Assembly (NCBI RefSeq): GCF_900107395.1
Contig: NZ_FNPW01000014.1
Location: 53,216 to 117,215 of the forward strand
DNA from: Pseudomonas sp. NFIX28
Lineage (GTDB): Bacteria; Pseudomonadota; Gammaproteobacteria; Pseudomonadales; Pseudomonadaceae
Direction of reading: 5' to 3'
Length of the DNA stretch: 64,000 nucleotides
Position 1 is the first letter of the stretch, and every line of letters begins with the position of its first letter. The notes below the pieces were generated by a model. It worked only from the letters and a program-made list of their open reading frames with translations, did not search any database and was not told the origin of the DNA. Shown here one piece after another: positions 262-12,373 of this stretch. Made by a program: the position numbers and the translations under genes.

Positions 262-1317
262 TTGGACTCGCCTTTGCGCATTGCCCTGATCGGCGCCGGC
301 AATATGGGCCAGCAGCATTATCAACACCTCAAGACCCTCACCGAGGCCAGGCTCTGTGCCGTGGCCGATCCTGGGCCGCAAGCCGCGGGAATCGCCGATG
401 GCTGGCAGGTGCCGTATTACCCCGAGTATCGACGGATGCTCGAACAGGCCCGCCCCGATGCAGTGATCGTCGCCAACCCGAACAACCTGCACGTCAGCAC
501 CGCGCTGGATTGCCTGGCCGCCGGCGTGCCGGTGCTGCTGGAGAAACCGGTCGGCGTGCAACTGGAGGAGGCGCGCGAACTGGTCGCTGCGGTGAAAGCC
601 AGCGGCGTCCCGGTGCTGGTCGGGCATCATCGGCGCCATAACCCGCTGATCGCCCGCGCCCATGAGTTGCTGCGGGGCGGGGCGGTGGGCCGCTTGACCA
701 CGGTTACCGCGCTCTGGCAATTGCACAAGCCCGACAGCTATTTCGAGATTCCCTGGCGCCGCGAGCCCGGGGCCGGAATGCTGCTGACCAACCTGATTCA
801 CGACCTCGACCTGCTGCGTCACCTGTGTGGCGAAGTGCGGCAGGTGCAGGCTGTCACCAGCAATGCGGTGCGCGGTTTTGCCAATGAGGATTGCGCCGCC
901 GTCCTGTTGCAATTCGCCAACGGCGCCCTGGGCAGCCTGACCGCTTCCGACGCCGTGGCGGCGCCCTGGAGCTGGGAGCTCGATTCCGGCGAGAACCCGG
1001 TGTATCCGCGCCAGGCCGACCAGCCATGCTACCTGCTGGCCGGCACCGGTGGCGCCCTGAGCATTCCGCAGCTCAAGCGCTGGCAATACGCCGAGGCCGG
1101 GGCTGGCTGGCATCAGCCGTTGCTGGTGAGCGAGGAAAATGTCACCGCCGCCGAAGCCCTGCGCCTGCAATTGCAGCACTTCGTCAAAGTGGCGCGGCGC
1201 GAGGTCGAGCCGCTGGTCAGCGTGGCCGATGCGGCGCGGACCCTGGCGCTGATCGAGGCGATTCGCGAAGCGGCCGCGACCGGCCGGGCCTGCGCTCCGG
1301 CGCTGATCGAGGAATGA
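262..1317 (+). CDS. Gfo/Idh/MocA family NAD(P)-dependent oxidoreductase
   Basis: The 351-aa cytoplasmic protein has a Rossmann fold with GAGNMG at residues 11-16, the family EKP motif (94-96) and an IHD catalytic-region motif (180-181). Members oxidise or reduce sugars, cyclitols and related polyols; the substrate cannot be read from sequence. The TTG start is preceded by AGGAT with 6-base spacing. Its stop overlaps the next gene in an ATGA, so the two are translationally coupled. Given the neighbouring quinate/shikimate genes and the shared 15-bp box upstream, a cyclitol-like substrate is plausible but is inference. Confidence 0.9.
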   Translation: MDSPLRIALIGAGNMGQQHYQHLKTLTEARLCAVADPGPQAAGIADGWQVPYYPEYRRMLEQARPDAVIVANPNNLHVSTALDCLAAGVPVLLEKPVGVQLEEARELVAAVKASGVPVLVGHHRRHNPLIARAHELLRGGAVGRLTTVTALWQLHKPDSYFEIPWRREPGAGMLLTNLIHDLDLLRHLCGEVRQVQAVTSNAVRGFANEDCAAVLLQFANGALGSLTASDAVAAPWSWELDSGENPVYPRQADQPCYLLAGTGGALSIPQLKRWQYAEAGAGWHQPLLVSEENVTAAEALRLQLQHFVKVARREVEPLVSVADAARTLALIEAIREAAATGRACAPALIEE

Positions 1318-2135
1318 GCATGAACGAACGCATTCTTTCCCTGGCCAGCCTCACGGTGCTGGAGATTTCGCCGCCGCAGATGGTCGAGGTCGCCGCCCGT
1401 GCCGGTTACAGCCACGTCGGTTTGCGCCTGGTGCCGGCGACGCCGGAAGAACACCACTTTGCCCTGGTGGCCGACGCCGAGTTGCGCCGGCAGACCCTGA
1501 GCCGCCTGCGCGACACCGGCATTTGTGTGCTGGATGTGGAGATCCTGCGGCTCAAGCCGCAAACCCGGGTGGCGGACTTCGAAGCGGTGCTGGCGGTGGG
1601 CGCGGAGTTCGGCGCCAGCGAGCTGCTGGTGGCCGGCAACGACCCCGACGAAGGGCGCATGACCGAGCGCTTCGCCGAACTGTGCGACCTGGCGTCGATC
1701 TACGGCTTGCACCCGCACCTGGAGTTCATGCCGTGGACCGATGCACGCAACCTGGAACAGGCGCTGCGGGTGGTGGAGAACGCCGGCCGCGGCAATGCCG
1801 CGGTGCTGGTGGACGCGTTCCACTTCGATCGCTCGGCCTCGCGCCTGGAAGACCTGGCGCAGGTCGCGCCAGCGCGGTTGCGTTATGCCCAGCTGTGCGA
1901 CGTGGCCGGCCCGCGCCCGGACGATATGCAGGAGATTTTGCGTCAGGCCCGCAACGAGCGGCGTTTCCCCGGCGACGGCGATTGCGACCTGACGGGGCTC
2001 TTGCGCTGCTTGCCGGCCAACCTGCCGTTGAGCCTGGAAATCCCCACGGTGGCATTGCTCGAGCAGGGCGTTAGCGCCCTGGAACGGGCGCAGCTGGCGC
2101 TGGACAAGACTCGCGCGCTGCTCGCCCGGCTTTAG
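1314..2135 (+). CDS. Sugar phosphate isomerase/epimerase-like TIM-barrel protein
   Basis: The 273-aa protein belongs to the xylose-isomerase-like/AP-endonuclease-2 TIM-barrel family, which uses divalent metal to isomerise, epimerise or dehydrate sugars and cyclitols. Probable metal ligands sit in HLEFMPW, VLVDAFHF and LSLEIP. It starts within the stop of the upstream oxidoreductase (ATGA, 1314-1317); an ATG two codons later (1320) is possible. Oxidoreductase plus isomerase pairs are typical of inositol- or keto-sugar-type pathways. It is a shorter relative of the N-terminal domain of QuiC at 5350. Substrate unknown. Confidence 0.85.
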   Translation: MSMNERILSLASLTVLEISPPQMVEVAARAGYSHVGLRLVPATPEEHHFALVADAELRRQTLSRLRDTGICVLDVEILRLKPQTRVADFEAVLAVGAEFGASELLVAGNDPDEGRMTERFAELCDLASIYGLHPHLEFMPWTDARNLEQALRVVENAGRGNAAVLVDAFHFDRSASRLEDLAQVAPARLRYAQLCDVAGPRPDDMQEILRQARNERRFPGDGDCDLTGLLRCLPANLPLSLEIPTVALLEQGVSALERAQLALDKTRALLARL

Positions 2136-2158
2136 CGGGTAGCGGGTGCGACTTTTTT

Positions 2159-2214
2159 CGCGGGCAAGCCTCGCTCCTACGGACCCGGTTTCGTAGGAGC
2201 GAGGCTTGCCCGCG
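2159..2214. repeat. REP inverted pair (type GTAGGAGCGAGGCTTGCC)
   Basis: Two perfect 22-bp copies face each other (2159-2180 and 2193-2214) across 12 bp, giving a long hairpin. It sits between the isomerase-like gene and the DMT permease. Confidence 0.9.
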
Positions 2215-2258
2215 AAGCTGTTTTCTACACACAAACCCTATCTTGAGAGGCCCCGCGG

Positions 2259-3137
2259 ATGACCCTCAGCACACCCCTTTGCGGTGTCAACCAGCCCTTC
2301 AAGGGCATCCTGCTGGTCGTCGTGGCGACCTTCCTGTTCGCCAGCCACGACGCCTTGTCGAAGTACCTCTCGGGGTTCTACCCGGTGGTGATGGTGGTCT
2401 GGGCCCGCTACCTGATCCATACCCTGCTGATGGCCGGGATCTTCCTGCCGCAATCGGGCCTGCGAGTGCTGCGCACCAAGCGGCCGCTGTTGCAGTGTGT
2501 GCGGGCCTTGTGCCTGCTCAGCACCAGCCTGCTGTTCACCTCGGCGCTGCTGTTCATTCCGCTGGCCGAAGCCACCGCGGTCAACTTCCTCGCGCCGGTG
2601 CTGGTCACCGCGCTGTCGGTGCCGCTGCTCGGCGAGCGGGTCACGCGGGGCCAGTGGCTGGCGGTGATCTGCGGCTTTATCGGGGTGCTGATCATCGTTC
2701 ACCCGGGCGGCGACCTGTTCACTCCGGCGGTGTTGCTGCCTTTCTGCTCGGCGCTGTTTTTCTGCTTCTACCAACTGCTGACCCGCAAACTCGCCGAGCA
2801 CGACAGCCCGACCACCAGCAACTTCTTCGCCGGCCTGTGCAACACCCTGGCGATGAGCGCGCTGGTGCCGTTCTTCTGGCAGCTGCCGAGCTTTACCCAT
2901 GGCGTGCTGATGTTGGCGCTGGGGGCCTGCGGCATGACCGCCCACCTGTTCCTGACCCAGGCCTTCCGCCATGCAGCGCCGGCCTTGCTGGCGCCGTTCG
3001 GCTATTGCCAGATCGTCTTCGCCGGGTTGCTGGGCTGGCTGCTGTTCAGCCATACGCCGCTGCCAATCACCCAGCTGGGCATCGCCGTGATCTGCCTCAG
3101 CGGCCTGGCGGCTGCCTGGCAACAGCGTCGGCGCTGA
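2259..3137 (+). CDS. DMT-superfamily (EamA) permease
   Basis: The 292-aa integral membrane protein is predicted to have ten helices in two EamA repeats, the standard size for drug/metabolite transporters. Hydrophobic segments run from LLVVVATFLFASHDALSKY to the C-terminal ITQLGIAVICLSGLAAAW, with a short basic tail. A GAGAGG ribosome site lies 9 bases upstream of the start. Direction and substrate are unknown. Its place downstream of the oxidoreductase-isomerase pair suggests transport of that substrate or product, but a REP hairpin separates them. Confidence 0.88.
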   Translation: MTLSTPLCGVNQPFKGILLVVVATFLFASHDALSKYLSGFYPVVMVVWARYLIHTLLMAGIFLPQSGLRVLRTKRPLLQCVRALCLLSTSLLFTSALLFIPLAEATAVNFLAPVLVTALSVPLLGERVTRGQWLAVICGFIGVLIIVHPGGDLFTPAVLLPFCSALFFCFYQLLTRKLAEHDSPTTSNFFAGLCNTLAMSALVPFFWQLPSFTHGVLMLALGACGMTAHLFLTQAFRHAAPALLAPFGYCQIVFAGLLGWLLFSHTPLPITQLGIAVICLSGLAAAWQQRRR

Positions 3138-3364: not shown

Positions 3365-4711
3365 TCAGTCTTCTATTTTTGGAATCTTGCGTGGGGCCAT
3401 GAAGTACATCCAGGTCAAGGCAATGAAGTACATCGCCGGGATCAGGGTGAACAGCACGGTGTAGTTATTGTTGGTGACGGTCAGGATGTGGCCCACCAGC
3501 TGGGTCATGAACATGCCGCCGATGGCCGCGCACATGCCGCCGAAACCGAACACCGTGCTCATCATGTGCTTGGGCGTGTAGTCCATCACCAGGCTCCAGA
3601 TGTTGGCGGTCCAGGCCTGGTGCGCGCCGATGGCCAGGGAGATGGCGAACACCGCCAGCCACAGGTTGCTGGCGCCGGCCGCCATGACCACGCCGACGAT
3701 GCAGCAGGCGAACAGCAGCATGGACATCAGGCGCGCCTTGATCGGGTTGACTCCGCGGCCGATCAGGAACGACGAGAGGATGCCGCCGCCGACGCTGCCG
3801 AAGTCGGCGGTCAGGTAGATGATGATCAGCGGGATGCCCATCTGGGTCACGTTGATGCCCAGGTTGTACTGCTGGTTGAGGAAGGGTGGCAGCCAGTACA
3901 GGTAGAACCAGAACACTGGCGCGGTGATCGAGTAGGCGAGGGCGAAGGCCCAGGTGCCGCGCATGCGCAGGATGCGCGAGAAAGGCACGCGGGTCTGTTC
4001 CGGCTCGACTTCTTTCTGGATGTATTCAAGCTCGGACTGTTTGACCGTCGGATGGTCCTCCGGGTTGAAGTACTTCAGGCCCCAGAACAGCAGCCAGACG
4101 CCGCCCAGCGCGGCCATGCACAGGAACGCCGCCTGCCAGCCCCAGGCGTGCAGGATCAACGGCAGCAGCATGGGCGTGAACATCGCGCCGACGTTGGTCC
4201 CGGCGTTGAAGATGCCGGTGGCCACCGCGCGTTCGCCGGCCGGGAACCACAGGCGCGTGGTCTTCACGCAGGCCGGGTAGTTGGCGGCCTCGGTCAGCCC
4301 GAGGATGAAGCGGCAGACCATAAAGCCCGCGGCCGAAGTGGCCAGGCCGTGAGCGCCGGTGGCCAGGCTCCACAGCAGCACCGCGAAGAAGAACACGCGC
4401 TTGACGCCGACCCGGTCGATCAGCCGTCCCTGCAGGACGAAACCGACGGCGTAGCCGACCTGGAACCAGAAGTTGATGTTGGCGTAGTCCATCGCCGTCC
4501 AGCTCATTTCCTTGGCCAGGATCGGTTGCATGACCCCCAGGGCGGCGCGGTCGATGTAGTTCAGGGTGGTGGCGAAGAACACCAGGGCGAGCATGCCCCA
4601 GCGGGTCTTGCCGACCGCCATGGCACCGCGGATCTTGTCGCCGATGCCACCGGAGGCGGTGCCGAGGCTCGAGGCCATGCGGGAGCTTTGAGAAGGAATC
4701 ATGTGGGCCAT
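3365..4711 (-). CDS. MFS transporter, anion:cation symporter (ACS) family
   Basis: The 448-aa, 12-helix major facilitator protein has TLNYIDRAALG at its first helix, typical of ACS-family hexuronate/glucarate/aromatic-acid symporters. It diverges from quiC, an arrangement I recall for the P. aeruginosa quinate/shikimate genes, so uptake of quinate, shikimate or dehydroshikimate is the best guess. The start is uncertain: ATGs at 4711, 4702 and 4678 are all in frame and none has a strong ribosome site. The N-terminal 40 residues are polar and poorly conserved in such families. Confidence 0.85.
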   Translation of the reverse strand: MAHMIPSQSSRMASSLGTASGGIGDKIRGAMAVGKTRWGMLALVFFATTLNYIDRAALGVMQPILAKEMSWTAMDYANINFWFQVGYAVGFVLQGRLIDRVGVKRVFFFAVLLWSLATGAHGLATSAAGFMVCRFILGLTEAANYPACVKTTRLWFPAGERAVATGIFNAGTNVGAMFTPMLLPLILHAWGWQAAFLCMAALGGVWLLFWGLKYFNPEDHPTVKQSELEYIQKEVEPEQTRVPFSRILRMRGTWAFALAYSITAPVFWFYLYWLPPFLNQQYNLGINVTQMGIPLIIIYLTADFGSVGGGILSSFLIGRGVNPIKARLMSMLLFACCIVGVVMAAGASNLWLAVFAISLAIGAHQAWTANIWSLVMDYTPKHMMSTVFGFGGMCAAIGGMFMTQLVGHILTVTNNNYTVLFTLIPAMYFIALTWMYFMAPRKIPKIED

Positions 4712-5125: not shown

Positions 5126-5140
5126 GTTCGATAATCGCAC
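5126..5140 (+). promoter_or_regulatory. PcaR-type operator, copy 2 (quiC leader)
   Basis: GTTCGATAATCGCAC is, as I recall, identical to the 15-bp PcaR binding sequence of the P. putida pca promoters. PcaR is the IclR-family activator that responds to beta-ketoadipate. It sits about 210 bp upstream of quiC, whose product protocatechuate feeds that pathway. Confidence 0.7.
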
Positions 5141-5349: not shown

Positions 5350-7260
5350 ATGCAGCGTTCCATTGCCACCGTCTCCTTGAGCGGTACCCTGCCGGAAAAA
5401 CTCGAAGCCATTGCCGCCGCCGGTTTTGACGGCGTGGAAATTTTCGAGAACGACCTGCTCTATTACGACGGCAGCCCCCGGGAGATCCGCCAGATGTGCG
5501 CGGACCTGGGCATCGCCATCACCTTGTTCCAGCCCTTTCGCGATTTCGAAGGCTGCCGCCGCGACCGCCTGCAGCGCAACCTGGAGCGCGCCGAGCGCAA
5601 GTTCGACCTGATGCAGGAACTGGGCACCGACCTGGTGCTGGTGTGCAGCAACGCCGCGGCCGACAGCGTCGGCTACCGGCAGATCCTCGTGGACGACCTG
5701 CGCCTGTTGGCCGAGCGCGCCGGCAGCCGTGGCCTGCGCATCGGCTACGAAGCCCTGGCCTGGGGCCGGCACGTCAATACTTATCAACAGGTGTGGGACA
5801 TCGTCCGCGAGGCCGACCACCCGAGCCTGGGCGTGCTGCTCGACAGCTTCCACACCTTGTCGCTCAAGGGCGACCCGGCGGCGATCGCCGAGATTCCCGG
5901 GGACAAGATTTTCTTCGTGCAGATGGCCGACGCGCCGATCCTGGCCATGGACGTGCTGGAGTGGAGCCGGCACTTTCGCTGCTTCCCGGGGCAGGGCGAT
6001 TTCGACTTGCCGGGGTTCCTCGCGCCGATCATCAAGAGCGGCTACACCGGGCCGTTGTCGCTGGAGATCTTCAATGACGGTTTCCGTGCCGCGCCCCCAC
6101 GCGCCAATGCCGCCGATGGCCTGCGTTCGCTGCTGTACCTGGAGGAGAAAACCCGCCAGCGCCTGGAACAGGAAGCCGCGCCGGTGGCCAATATCGATAC
6201 CCTGTTCGCGCCGCCGCCGGCCAGTGAGTATGGCGGCACCGAGTTCCTTGAGTTCGCCGTGGACGACGCGCTGGGCGCCAAGCTTGGCGGCTGGCTGGAA
6301 CGCCTGGGGTTCGCCAGGGCCGGCCTGCATCGCTCGAAGAACGTCAGCCTGATGCGCCAGGGCGATATCAACCTGATCCTCAACTCTGAGCCGTACTCCT
6401 TTGCCCACAGTTTCTTCGAAGCCCACGGCCCCTCGGTGTGCGCCACGGCGATCCGGGTCAAGGACAGCGCCAAGGCGCTGGAGCGCGCGGTGGCCTACAA
6501 GGGCCAGCCGTATCGCGGGCTGGTGGGGCCCAACGAGCTGGAACTGGCCGCGGTGCGCGAGCTGGATGGCAGCCTGATCTACCTGGTGGACCAGGAGCAG
6601 GGCGGCCAGCACCTGTACGACACCGATTTCAATATGTTCCCGGGCGTGGTGGCCAAGGGCGGCCTCAAGCGCATCGACCACATGGCCATGGCGCTGCCGG
6701 CCGAGAGCCTCGACAGCTGGGTGCTGTTCTACAAGAGTCTGCTGGATTTCACCGCCGACGACGAAGTGGTGCTGCCCGATCCCTACGGGCTGGTGAAGAG
6801 CCGGGCGCTGCGCAGCCGCTGCAGCAGCATTCGTCTGCCGCTGAACATTTCCGAAAACCGCAAGACCGCGATCTCCCATGCGCTGTCCAGCTATGGCGGC
6901 TCGGGCGTGCATCACATCGCCTTCGATTGCGACGATATCTTTACCGAAGTCAGCCGGGCCAAGGAAGCGGGCGTGCCGCTGCTGGACATCCCGCTCAACT
7001 ACTACGACGACCTGGCGGCACGCTTCGATTTCGACGACGAGTTCCTCAGCGAACTGGCCTATTACAACGTGCTCTACGACCGCGACGCCCAGGGCGGCGA
7101 GTTGTTCCACGTCTACACCGAGCCGTTCGAAGGGCGCTTCTTCTTCGAGATCATCCAGCGCAAGAATGGCTATGTCGGTTATGGCGCGGCGAACGTCGCG
7201 GTGCGCCTGGCGGCCATGGCCAAATCGCGCAGCGGCGGGGCGCGGCACGCCAAGTTGTAG
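5350..7260 (+). CDS. quiC: 3-dehydroshikimate dehydratase (fused to HPPD-like domain)
   Basis: The 636-aa enzyme converts 3-dehydroshikimate to protocatechuate, the entry to the beta-ketoadipate pathway. The N-terminal TIM barrel (about 1-275) has the metal ligands Glu134, Asp165, Gln191 and Glu239 known for this family. The C-terminal part (about 290-630) is two VOC modules resembling 4-hydroxyphenylpyruvate dioxygenase; its His444, His521 or His522, and Glu600 could still form a metal site. A GGGAG ribosome site lies 8 bases upstream. It is divergent from the MFS permease and co-directional with the TetR gene. The dehydratase role is well supported; any activity of the second domain is unknown. 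Confidence 0.93.
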   Translation: MQRSIATVSLSGTLPEKLEAIAAAGFDGVEIFENDLLYYDGSPREIRQMCADLGIAITLFQPFRDFEGCRRDRLQRNLERAERKFDLMQELGTDLVLVCSNAAADSVGYRQILVDDLRLLAERAGSRGLRIGYEALAWGRHVNTYQQVWDIVREADHPSLGVLLDSFHTLSLKGDPAAIAEIPGDKIFFVQMADAPILAMDVLEWSRHFRCFPGQGDFDLPGFLAPIIKSGYTGPLSLEIFNDGFRAAPPRANAADGLRSLLYLEEKTRQRLEQEAAPVANIDTLFAPPPASEYGGTEFLEFAVDDALGAKLGGWLERLGFARAGLHRSKNVSLMRQGDINLILNSEPYSFAHSFFEAHGPSVCATAIRVKDSAKALERAVAYKGQPYRGLVGPNELELAAVRELDGSLIYLVDQEQGGQHLYDTDFNMFPGVVAKGGLKRIDHMAMALPAESLDSWVLFYKSLLDFTADDEVVLPDPYGLVKSRALRSRCSSIRLPLNISENRKTAISHALSSYGGSGVHHIAFDCDDIFTEVSRAKEAGVPLLDIPLNYYDDLAARFDFDDEFLSELAYYNVLYDRDAQGGELFHVYTEPFEGRFFFEIIQRKNGYVGYGAANVAVRLAAMAKSRSGGARHAKL

Positions 7261-7346
7261 GAGTTTCGTAACGGCGGCGGCAAAGGGCCGCCATCCTGCT
7301 TTCCTTCGCTGCGCGAGGCGGCCCATAATCGGCCGGGTGTGTAGTG

Positions 7347-8042
7347 ATGGCCGTGAGCCCCAGAATGACAATGACCAGAGAACTCTCCGTAGCGCCCGAA
7401 CAGCCTGTGATCGAGTCGCGCAAGAGTCGCAAGAACAACCCGGAAAAGACCCGCGAGAACATTCTTCAAGAAGCCATTGTCGAGTTCGTGCAGCAGGGTC
7501 TGTCCGGTGCTCGGGTGGATGCCATCGCCGAGCGCATCCACACCTCCAAGCGCATGATCTATTACTACTTCGGCAGCAAGGAGCAGCTGTACGTCGAGGT
7601 GCTGGAGAAGCTCTACGGCGATATCCGCAACACCGAAAGCCGCCTGCACCTGGCGGAGCTGGCGCCGCGCGATGCGATTCGCCGGCTGGTGGAATTCACC
7701 TTCGACCACCACGACCGCAACGTCGATTTCGTGCGCATCGTCAGCATCGAAAACATCCATAACGCCGAGTACGTGAAGCGCTCCGAAGCGATCAAGGCGA
7801 TGAACAACACCATCCTCCATGCCCTGGGCGAGATCCTCCGGCGCGGTGTCGACGAGGGTGTGTTCCGCGCCGGCCTGGACCCGCTGGACGTGCATTTGCT
7901 GATCAGTTCGTTCTGCTTCTACCGCGTGTCCAACCGCCACACCTTCGGCGAGATCTTCCAGATCGACCTGCCCGACGAAGCGATCAAGCAGCGCCACCGC
8001 GAAATGATCTGCGAATCGGTGCTGCGTTACTTGCAGGCCTGA
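7347..8042 (+). CDS. TetR/AcrR family transcriptional regulator
   Basis: The 231-aa protein has a TetR helix-turn-helix at about 40-85 (RENILQEAIVEF... HTSKRMIYYYFGSKEQLY) and a C-terminal ligand-binding domain of about 130 residues. It lies 86 bp after quiC in the same direction. I recall a TetR gene next to quiC in P. aeruginosa, so local control of quinate/shikimate genes is likely. Start choice is uncertain: ATG at 7347 or 7365, or GTG at 7344. Its 3' end abuts the convergent MocR gene, 4 bp away. Confidence 0.85.
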   Translation: MAVSPRMTMTRELSVAPEQPVIESRKSRKNNPEKTRENILQEAIVEFVQQGLSGARVDAIAERIHTSKRMIYYYFGSKEQLYVEVLEKLYGDIRNTESRLHLAELAPRDAIRRLVEFTFDHHDRNVDFVRIVSIENIHNAEYVKRSEAIKAMNNTILHALGEILRRGVDEGVFRAGLDPLDVHLLISSFCFYRVSNRHTFGEIFQIDLPDEAIKQRHREMICESVLRYLQA

Positions 8043-10933: not shown

Positions 10934-11788
10934 TCAGCCATTCATGCTCTGGAAATGCGCGAGCATGCGCTGGGCATCCGGTGTCACGCCGCTGAACAGT
11001 TCGAACGCCTTCACCGCCTGGAACACCGCCATGTTGCCGCCGTCGAGGGTGCGGCAGCCGAGGGCGCGGGCGTTGCGCAGCAGCTCGGTTTCCAGCGGGA
11101 AGTAGACGATCTCCGCGACCCACAATTCAGAGCGCAGCAACTCGACCGGTACCGGCATGCCCGGCAGCTTGGCCATGCCCATCGGCGTGGTGTTCACCAG
11201 GCCGTCGGCGGCAGCCAGGGTGGCGGGCAGGTCGAGGCCGGCCTTGGCCCGGCCGGCGCCGAAATGCTGGTTGAGGTTGTCCGCCAGGCTCTGGGCGCGG
11301 GCGCTTTCGACATCGAAGATATGCAACTGCCGCACGCCTTCGCTGAGCAGCGCATGGGCCACCGCGGCACCGGCACCGCCGGCGCCCATCTGCACCACAC
11401 GCTCCAGGGCCACGCCCTGCAAGCCGCGACGGAAACCCTCGGCAAAACCCAGGCAATCGGTGTTGTGACCGATGCGCTTGCCATCCTTGAGTGCCACGGT
11501 ATTCACCGCGCCGATGCCACGGGCCTCGGGCGACAACTCGTCGAGCAGCGGGATGATGCTTTGCTTGCATGGAAAAGTGATGTTCAGCCCGGTGAAACTC
11601 ATGCGCTCGGCGGCCAGCAGCAAATCGGGCAGGGCGCTGCTGTCCAGTTGCAATGCGTCCAGGTCGATCAGCCGGTACAGGTAGCGCAGGCCCTGGGCGT
11701 CGCCTTCATGTTCATGCAGCGCCGGGGTGCGCGAAGCCTGGATGCCGGCGCCGATCAGCCCGGCCAGTACTGTGTGCTGCTGGGTCAT
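10934..11788 (-). CDS. Quinate/shikimate dehydrogenase (AroE family, catabolic type)
   Basis: The 284-aa enzyme has the SRTPALHE substrate motif (19-26), catalytic Lys75 and Asp111, and a GAGGAG nucleotide loop (135-140). The Ser-x-Thr-Pro form and an acidic residue after strand 2 (HIFDVES, Asp159), where biosynthetic AroE has an NRT...R/K NADP clamp, match the NAD-dependent quinate/shikimate dehydrogenase class. The start at 11788 overlaps the aroQ stop in ATGA, so the two are coupled. A separate biosynthetic aroE would be expected elsewhere in the genome. Confidence 0.9.
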
Positions 11789-12234
11789 GCCCGGGCTCCT
11801 TGAAAATGCTGGCCGAAATGCGCCAATGCCAGGCGATAGCCGTGGCTGCCGAACCCGCACATTACCGCCAGGGCGATGCCCGAGACAAAGGAATGATGGC
11901 GGAACGGCTCGCGGGCGTGGACGTTCGACAGGTGCACTTCGATCACCGGCAACTCGCTGGCCACCAGGGCATCGCGGATCGCCACCGAGGTGTGGGTCCA
12001 GGCCGCCGGGTTGATCACGATCCCGGCGCAACGGCCACGGGCACCGTGAATCCAGTCCAGCAGCTCGCCTTCATGGTTGGTCTGGCGAAACTCGACGCCC
12101 AGGCCGAATTCCTCGGCGGCACGCCCGCACAGCGCGGAAATGTCGGCCAGGGTCTCGTGACCATAAGTGGCGGGTTCGCGGGTGCCGAGCAGGTTCAGGT
12201 TCGGGCCGTTGAGCACCAGAACGATAGGGCGCAT
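11785..12234 (-). CDS. aroQ: Type II 3-dehydroquinate dehydratase
   Basis: The 149-aa protein interconverts 3-dehydroquinate and 3-dehydroshikimate. All type II active-site residues are present at canonical positions: Asn12, Arg19, Tyr24, Asn75, His101 and Arg112. It is first in an aroQ-aroE pair with a 4-bp overlap, consistent with a catabolic copy supplying QuiC. Its leader carries the shared operator motifs at 12298-12308 and 12359-12373. Confidence 0.95.
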
Positions 12235-12358: not shown

Positions 12359-12373
12359 GTTCGGTGATCGAAC
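12359..12373. promoter_or_regulatory. IclR-type (PcaR-like) operator candidate, copy 3 (aroQ leader)
   Basis: GTTCGGTGATCGAAC has perfect 5-bp inverted arms (GTTCG / CGAAC) with the same spacing as 5126-5140 and 156-170. It lies about 125 bp upstream of aroQ. Confidence 0.6.

Follow-up and report, generated by a model that had tools for sequence, protein, structure and literature searches.

A Gfo/Idh/MocA dehydrogenase and TIM-barrel gene pair of Pseudomonas: a candidate accessory module for hydroaromatic acid catabolism

The opening genes of a 64,000-nucleotide stretch from Pseudomonas sp. NFIX28 (contig NZ_FNPW01000014.1, positions 53,216 to 117,215; here called the window) raise the question of which substrate is handled by a Gfo/Idh/MocA-family dehydrogenase gene (gfo) and the TIM-barrel gene that follows it (tim). 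Such gene pairs often belong to sugar or inositol-type routes, and in the window the pair lies near quiC, which encodes a 3-dehydroshikimate dehydratase. The original prediction combined gfo, tim and a downstream permease gene into an oxidoreductase-isomerase-permease unit for a cyclitol or keto-sugar, tied to quiC by an upstream operator. The tie to quiC and the operator withstood further analysis, while the unit and the keto-sugar route did not, and the function can be sharpened. With moderate confidence, sequence comparisons lead us to place gfo and tim in an accessory module for the catabolism of a quinate/shikimate-type hydroaromatic acid, one with a cyclohexane ring. In many Pseudomonas species, the gene set probably converts a quinate-related plant acid to an ordinary aromatic compound for catabolism. 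The three predicted genes were all confirmed, as follows, together with a repetitive extragenic palindromic (REP)-like element:

262–1317, + strand: gfo, Gfo/Idh/MocA dehydrogenase gene, TTG start, 351 aa; proposed hydroaromatic-acid dehydrogenase
1320–2135, + strand: tim, TIM-barrel (xylose-isomerase-like) gene, ATG start, 271 aa; PF01261, 58 bits (cut-off 31)
2157–2216, no strand assigned: REP-like inverted repeat, 30+30 nt, 93% complementary, between the tim and permease genes
2259–3137, + strand: EamA/DMT permease gene (PF00892), a variable member of the cluster

Two bases lie between the gfo stop codon and the tim ATG, and translational coupling of the two genes is plausible. Membership of the permease gene in the same transcript is less clear, because a gap of 123 bases containing the REP-like hairpin precedes it. 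The arrangement was compared across 80 named loci, which extend up to 6 kb to each side where the contig allows and in which a match was defined as more than 60% identity. These loci contained gfo in 72 cases, the gene of an IclR-family regulator in 71, a flavin adenine dinucleotide (FAD)-binding flavoprotein gene and a major facilitator superfamily (MFS) transporter gene in 54 each, quiC in 46 and the permease gene in 43. The permease was accordingly rejected as a fixed member, and the closer partners of the module are the IclR regulator and the flavoprotein. In a P. putida-like lineage that includes P. taiwanensis DSM 21245, the flavoprotein, IclR, gfo, tim and usually MFS genes remain together at a distance from quiC. 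The soil laboratory strain P. fluorescens FW300-N2E3 (L177) has the complete module.

Both closer partners are encoded just outside the window. The iclR gene precedes gfo in the same orientation, and the gene of the FAD_binding_2 flavoprotein is divergent from iclR. Beyond these two is a pcaHG pair, both subunits of which score above the protocatechuate dioxygenase cut-offs. A further pair is found in the main pca cluster, alongside pcaF, pcaK and pcaR, so that the genome has two; the beta subunit of the pair in the hydroaromatic cluster is 51% identical to that of the other (L003:9650-10987; L320:879-2148). The flavoprotein belongs to subfamily PRK06134 (980 bits, cut-off 747). Its best model with a named substrate is that of ChcC2, a 4-oxocyclohex-2-ene-1-carboxylate 5-dehydrogenase, which it resembles by score (NF053677, 522 bits) while falling below the cut-off of 900. 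It also matches the 3-ketosteroid dehydrogenases (KstD) in sequence, with 270 bits against PDB 7p18. Unlike either of these enzymes, it travels with a TIM protein.

This association was quantified in a genus sample of 199 genomes, with orthologs defined by at least 60% identity for TIM and at least 67% for the flavoprotein. The multi-genome searches scored the best 12, 10, 6, 6 or 5 candidates per genome, depending on the search (10 for the diverged dehydrogenase Gfo2 described below, 6 for the TIM phylum profile and 5 for the Gfo phylum profile). TIM orthologs were found in 55 genomes and flavoprotein orthologs in 54, with both present in 53 (Fisher 1e-44). Physical linkage alone is insufficient to account for this tie, because in ten genomes the two genes are separated by more than 10 kb or occupy different contigs. 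The only genome with a flavoprotein ortholog and no TIM ortholog, G139, encodes a 44% identical TIM protein in the same locus.

The dehydrogenase follows a comparable pattern. Orthologs of gfo occur in 44 of the 199 genomes, every one of which also has TIM, and nine of the 11 TIM genomes that lack gfo encode a diverged Gfo (43–46%), here called Gfo2. With as many as 10 candidates scored in each, no other genome of the sample had Gfo2 at E 1e-70. Gfo or Gfo2 is thus present in 53 of the 55 TIM genomes, and TIM in every genome with either. The gfo2 gene adjoins tim in one of the nine genomes (G023) and lies elsewhere in the other eight. Five of these eight unlinked copies are found beside aroQ (L093, L094, L095, L096 and L098), three of the five also beside a shiA-like transporter gene, whereas L092, L097 and L099 have neither alongside. 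L094 contains, in this order, a LysR-like open reading frame (ORF; assigned by eye), gfo2, the shiA-like gene, aroQ and another Gfo-like ORF (L094:147-5321). The five aroQ-linked loci resemble compact quinate operons whose dehydrogenase is of the Gfo type.

The surroundings of the pair in the window contain further genes of quinate and shikimate metabolism:

3365–4711, − strand: MFS transporter gene, a relative of which stays beside tim in many loci with a distant quiC
5350–7260, + strand: quiC, two-domain 3-dehydroshikimate dehydratase; curated QuiC model NF042435, 1293.8 bits (cut-off 1200)
7344–8042, + strand: TetR-family regulator gene after quiC
10943–11770, − strand: aroE-like shikimate/quinate dehydrogenase gene (aligned part), 80% identity to the L038 protein
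11785–12234, − strand: aroQ, type II 3-dehydroquinate dehydratase, 87% identity to the L043 protein (PF01220)

A MocR-like regulator gene lies downstream of the TetR gene within the window, and the AroE-like protein of L038 scores 460 bits with PRK12549 (cut-off 235). The genus sample bears out the predicted connection with quiC, which is present in all 55 TIM genomes and in 164 of the 199 overall (Fisher 5e-6). A pair occurring mostly without quiC had been named as contrary evidence and was looked for; every TIM genome had quiC. Among 39 larger TIM loci of the genus, quiC lies within the fetched stretch in 25 and not in 14, two of which sit on short contigs.

Hydroaromatic context extends far outside Pseudomonas. 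Among genomes of the same family beyond the genus, TIM matches at E 1e-15 were found in 40 of 148, covering 9 of 19 genera. In a phylum sample of 398 genomes, the TIM-family profile matched 22 genomes, including that of the window. Twenty regions, covering 21 of the 26 matches outside it, contained a flavoprotein homolog (37–71%) in 11 cases and quiC, aroE-like or aroQ genes in 14, both counts standing without a control set. The genes aroQ, gfo and tim are consecutive on one strand in L258, a catechol-type intradiol dioxygenase gene precedes tim in L264, and a pcaH-like match lies beside tim in L267. In L251, the genes of quiC, a tannase/feruloyl esterase, the flavoprotein and tim are consecutive on one strand, an order that would be expected where quinate esters serve as the source.

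The Gfo-family profile matched 31 of the 398 genomes, again including that of the window. Neighbourhoods of about 6 kb to each side (regions of up to about 13 kb, some shortened by contig ends) were inspected for the 31 matches outside it. Hydroaromatic marker genes were found in 23 of these regions (quiC in 14, aroE-like genes in 12 and aroQ in 10), compared with none of 20 regions around the inositol dehydrogenase IolG from the same phylum, for which 20 of 29 matches were used (p 4e-8). A stricter count left out weak aroE-like matches and accepted only aroQ and those quiC matches extending into the dehydratase domain; it still gave 21 of 31. The association of the Gfo family with hydroaromatic acids seems to reach beyond the TIM module, since TIM lies near only three of the 31.

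The predicted operator could also be resolved into two kinds of site. The P. putida PcaR operator is given as GTTCGATAATCGCAC in the available passages of PMC12455658, and the following sites were located in the window:

156–170, + strand: PcaR-type box upstream of gfo, 3 mismatches to GTTCGATAATCGCAC
199–213, no strand assigned: palindrome TGGAACNNNGTTCTA (exact match), putative binding site of the local IclR protein
5126–5140, + strand: exact PcaR operator GTTCGATAATCGCAC upstream of quiC, by sequence match
12359–12373, no strand assigned: PcaR-like box before aroQ, with 3 mismatches whichever strand is read

By chance, a mean of 1.31 matches to GTTCGATAATCGCAC at 3 mismatches is expected per 64 kb, and a lone box of this kind is weak. 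The box recurs, however, across upstream regions, which were counted on distinct sequences because the 80 named loci are partly the same as the genus genomes. At up to 3 mismatches, it precedes quiC in 64 of 67, gfo in 64 of 90 and iclR in 62 of 95, compared with 0 of 335, 2 of 450 and 6 of 475 dinucleotide shuffles, respectively. One-mismatch matches number three in the genome; two are in the pca cluster, and the third falls between the start of iclR and the conserved region of the flavoprotein gene. PcaR itself is encoded in this genome (G000; TIGR02431, 350 bits, cut-off 284.75). The palindrome TGGAACNNNGTTCTA at up to 2 mismatches has a different distribution: gfo 88 of 90, tim without gfo 16 of 17, iclR 55 of 95 and quiC 0 of 67, with shuffles giving 8 of 450, 1 of 85, 4 of 475 and 2 of 335. 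This count is partly circular, as TGGAACNNNGTTCTA was derived from an alignment of some of the upstream regions counted; the shuffles, and the quiC upstream regions that lack it, serve as controls. The operator upstream of gfo thus appears to be real, and to consist of a PcaR-type box shared with quiC and a palindrome absent from quiC promoters. Most simply, the palindrome would define a separate small regulon controlled by the local IclR protein, although we infer this pairing of regulator and site. A second exact palindrome occurs in the genome on C42. It was set aside as a link to the module, as none was seen in its surroundings, where neighbouring genes appear efflux-like by their first residues only and no family search was made.

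The proteins themselves narrow the chemistry. Both the NAD-binding Rossmann domain and the C-terminal domains of Gfo score above cut-off (given in brackets), as in the Gfo/Idh/MocA family: PF01408 92.3 (24), PF22725 80.8 (27) and PF02894 69.4 bits (22.9). K95, which we take to be the lysine of the EKP motif, and H180, presumably the later active-site histidine, are invariant in 16 of 16 aligned proteins. The Gfo structure model ties with many dehydrogenases and is hence uninformative on substrate. The TIM protein was modelled with high confidence (pLDDT 93.6), and its nearest solved folds are tied: Lmo2234 (Z 30.5), IolI (30.1) and the barrel of the two-domain dehydroshikimate dehydratase QuiC1 (PDB 5hmq; 29.6), the next having 26.8. 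AsbF scored below these three (Z 23.8), which is no evidence of difference. With such kin, including the dehydratase domain of QuiC1, the earlier assignment of TIM as an isomerase gives way to a proposed metal-dependent dehydratase.

Residues E135, D165, Q191 and E240 of TIM align with the metal ligands of QuiC1, which we take to be E, D, Q and E, and H168, R211 and R214 agree as well; TIM thereby shows the E, D, Q/H, E pattern of dehydroshikimate dehydratases. All 26 phylum relatives share E135, D165, R214 and E240; H168 is conserved in 21 of them and R211 in 24. The pattern fits a metal-dependent dehydratase without being proof of one. The available passages of PMC9324987 name E142, D172 and E253 for AsbF. 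TIM shares with QuiC1 both the barrel fold and the gene cluster. It differs from QuiC in having no C-terminal domain resembling 4-hydroxyphenylpyruvate dioxygenase, it is 31% identical to the QuiC of the window over about 120 residues, and with 271 aa and 30.9 bits against the NF042435 cut-off of 1200 it was rejected as a two-domain QuiC-type enzyme. IolI has H at the position of Q191. The best sequence match of TIM is Lmo2234 (PDB 2g0w; E 9e-15, profile E 6e-22, about 25% identity), presumably the Listeria dehydratase QuiC2, which has Leu at the position of R211. The available passages of PMC5736727 call lmo2234 only a sugar phosphate isomerase.

From these observations we infer a route, its steps, their order and its substrate. 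Using NAD(P), Gfo would turn a ring hydroxyl of the hydroaromatic acid into a ketone, and TIM, as a relative of dehydroshikimate dehydratases, would remove water next to the new ketone. The flavoprotein, as a relative of cyclohexanecarboxylate and 3-ketosteroid desaturases, would then take 2H and aromatise the ring. The end product may be protocatechuate, to be cleaved by the enzyme of the upstream pcaHG pair; we favour this product because of the second pcaHG pair, the PcaR-type boxes and quiC. A candidate substrate is dihydroshikimate, for which the formulae balance (C7H12O5 − 2H − H2O − 2H = C7H6O4, protocatechuate). The same losses would lead from quinate to gallate, and from dihydroxycyclohexanecarboxylate to hydroxybenzoate. 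Control of the module would lie with the local IclR regulator, acting at TGGAAC-N3-GTTCTA sites, and the link to quiC would be provided by PcaR or a related protein.

Other explanations compete with this route. In one, which we regard as rather unlikely, TIM is an additional 3-dehydroshikimate dehydratase, an isozyme like QuiC2, and Gfo is an NAD-dependent shikimate/quinate dehydrogenase, so that the pair duplicates the route from quinate and shikimate to protocatechuate. The tied folds and the QuiC1-like ligand pattern of TIM are as expected of such an isozyme, and the P. taiwanensis type strain (L136) has tim without quiC within 6 kb. P. taiwanensis VLB120 has three 3-dehydroshikimate dehydratase genes, quiC, quiC1 and quiC2, according to the available passages of PMC6581684; quiC2 might correspond to tim. 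The scheme nevertheless has to accommodate quiC in every TIM genome, and it leaves no role for the desaturase-like flavoprotein that is so closely tied to TIM.

In another explanation, the flavoprotein and TIM convert 3-dehydroquinate or 3-dehydroshikimate to gallate instead of protocatechuate. The balance from quinate would allow this (C7H12O6 − 2H − H2O − 2H = C7H6O5), and in L251 the tannase/feruloyl esterase gene lies between those of the flavoprotein and quiC. We consider it very unlikely, since the neighbouring ring-cleavage genes are pcaHG above the protocatechuate dioxygenase cut-offs and the upstream boxes are of the PcaR type. A sugar or inositol-type keto-sugar route for Gfo and TIM, as first predicted, would suit two folds typical of sugar and inositol enzymes, with IolI among the nearest folds of TIM and mostly sugar and inositol dehydrogenases, together with a dihydrodiol phthalate dehydrogenase, among those of Gfo. 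It was set aside as highly improbable: Gfo does not reach the cut-off of the inositol dehydrogenase equivalog TIGR04380 (152.3 bits against 355), quinate and shikimate genes surround 23 of 31 Gfo relatives and none of the 20 IolG controls, and PcaR-type boxes lie upstream.

A number of observations also weigh against the hydroaromatic-acid module as we propose it. The co-occurrence statistics take no account of common ancestry, and the 31 Gfo regions are not independent, as several belong to one genus. Two TIM genomes (G146 and G183) have no flavoprotein at E 1e-60 with every candidate scored, and both Gfo and Gfo2 are missing from two others, G161 and G167. In G167, where gfo is missing, the flavoprotein match (G167:C90:26021-27907) contains four in-frame stop codons; this could reflect decay of the module in that genome, or a match that extends beyond the true start of the gene. 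Outside Pseudomonadaceae, TIM is mostly not adjacent to Gfo, as the three of 31 regions attest, and Gfo may serve ordinary quinate. Position 191 of TIM is Q in 18 of the 26 phylum relatives, H in seven and E in one, and GTTCGATAATCGCAC at up to 3 mismatches precedes tim in only three of 17 loci without gfo. Both the flavoprotein and TIM fall below the curated cut-offs of named enzymes, the available literature passages give no substrate or activity for these proteins, and TIM could be a spare dehydroshikimate dehydratase, quiC being present in all 55 TIM genomes.

Other genes recur around the module. Several loci (L036:13900-17733, L047:11670-16280, L071, L112 and L136) encode, near it, a small NIPSNAP protein between two FAD_binding_2 flavoproteins, close to the MFS or TetR gene and in several cases alongside an AroE-like and another IclR-like gene; this set may serve another hydroaromatic acid that requires two desaturation steps. 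In several species, a methyl-accepting chemotaxis protein gene lies between the permease and MFS genes (L058:10950-12572 and relatives), and its product is perhaps a receptor for the acid of the module. A TctABC-type tripartite tricarboxylate transporter takes the place of the flavoprotein in L051, L052, L055, L056, L072, L146 and L148. A TIM paralog of 40–44% identity is found near a distant MFS relative in L102–L108, and the fetched stretches of these loci gave no flavoprotein or Gfo marker matches.

The known quinate and shikimate dehydrogenases are of the AroE type or the pyrroloquinoline quinone (PQQ) type. Gfo would perform the same oxidation and is of an unrelated family, and an AroE-like gene is present in the same window. 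Tentatively, and with less assurance than we attach to the module as such, Gfo could represent a third, unrelated (Gfo/Idh/MocA) class of quinate/shikimate-type dehydrogenase across Proteobacteria, with Gfo, TIM and the flavoprotein forming an undescribed route that converts saturated hydroaromatic acids, dihydroshikimate for example, directly to protocatechuate and bypasses dehydroquinate and dehydroshikimate. Judged by titles and abstract openings, the literature held no description of the module, most subscription journals lying outside the search, and no paper was found that links Gfo/Idh/MocA proteins with dehydroshikimate, or quinate with random barcode transposon sequencing (RB-TnSeq).

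The tim gene is carried by about a quarter of the sampled genus (55 of 199), often beside a well-studied aromatic catabolic regulon. The module is possibly a variant of hydroaromatic catabolism with a new class of dehydrogenase. If so, a dehydrogenase family not usually linked to this pathway would be added to hydroaromatic metabolism, an orphan regulator and its operator would be explained, and a substrate class would be suggested for these bacteria. Engineers who delete quiC genes to stop the loss of shikimate-pathway intermediates may then face another drain.

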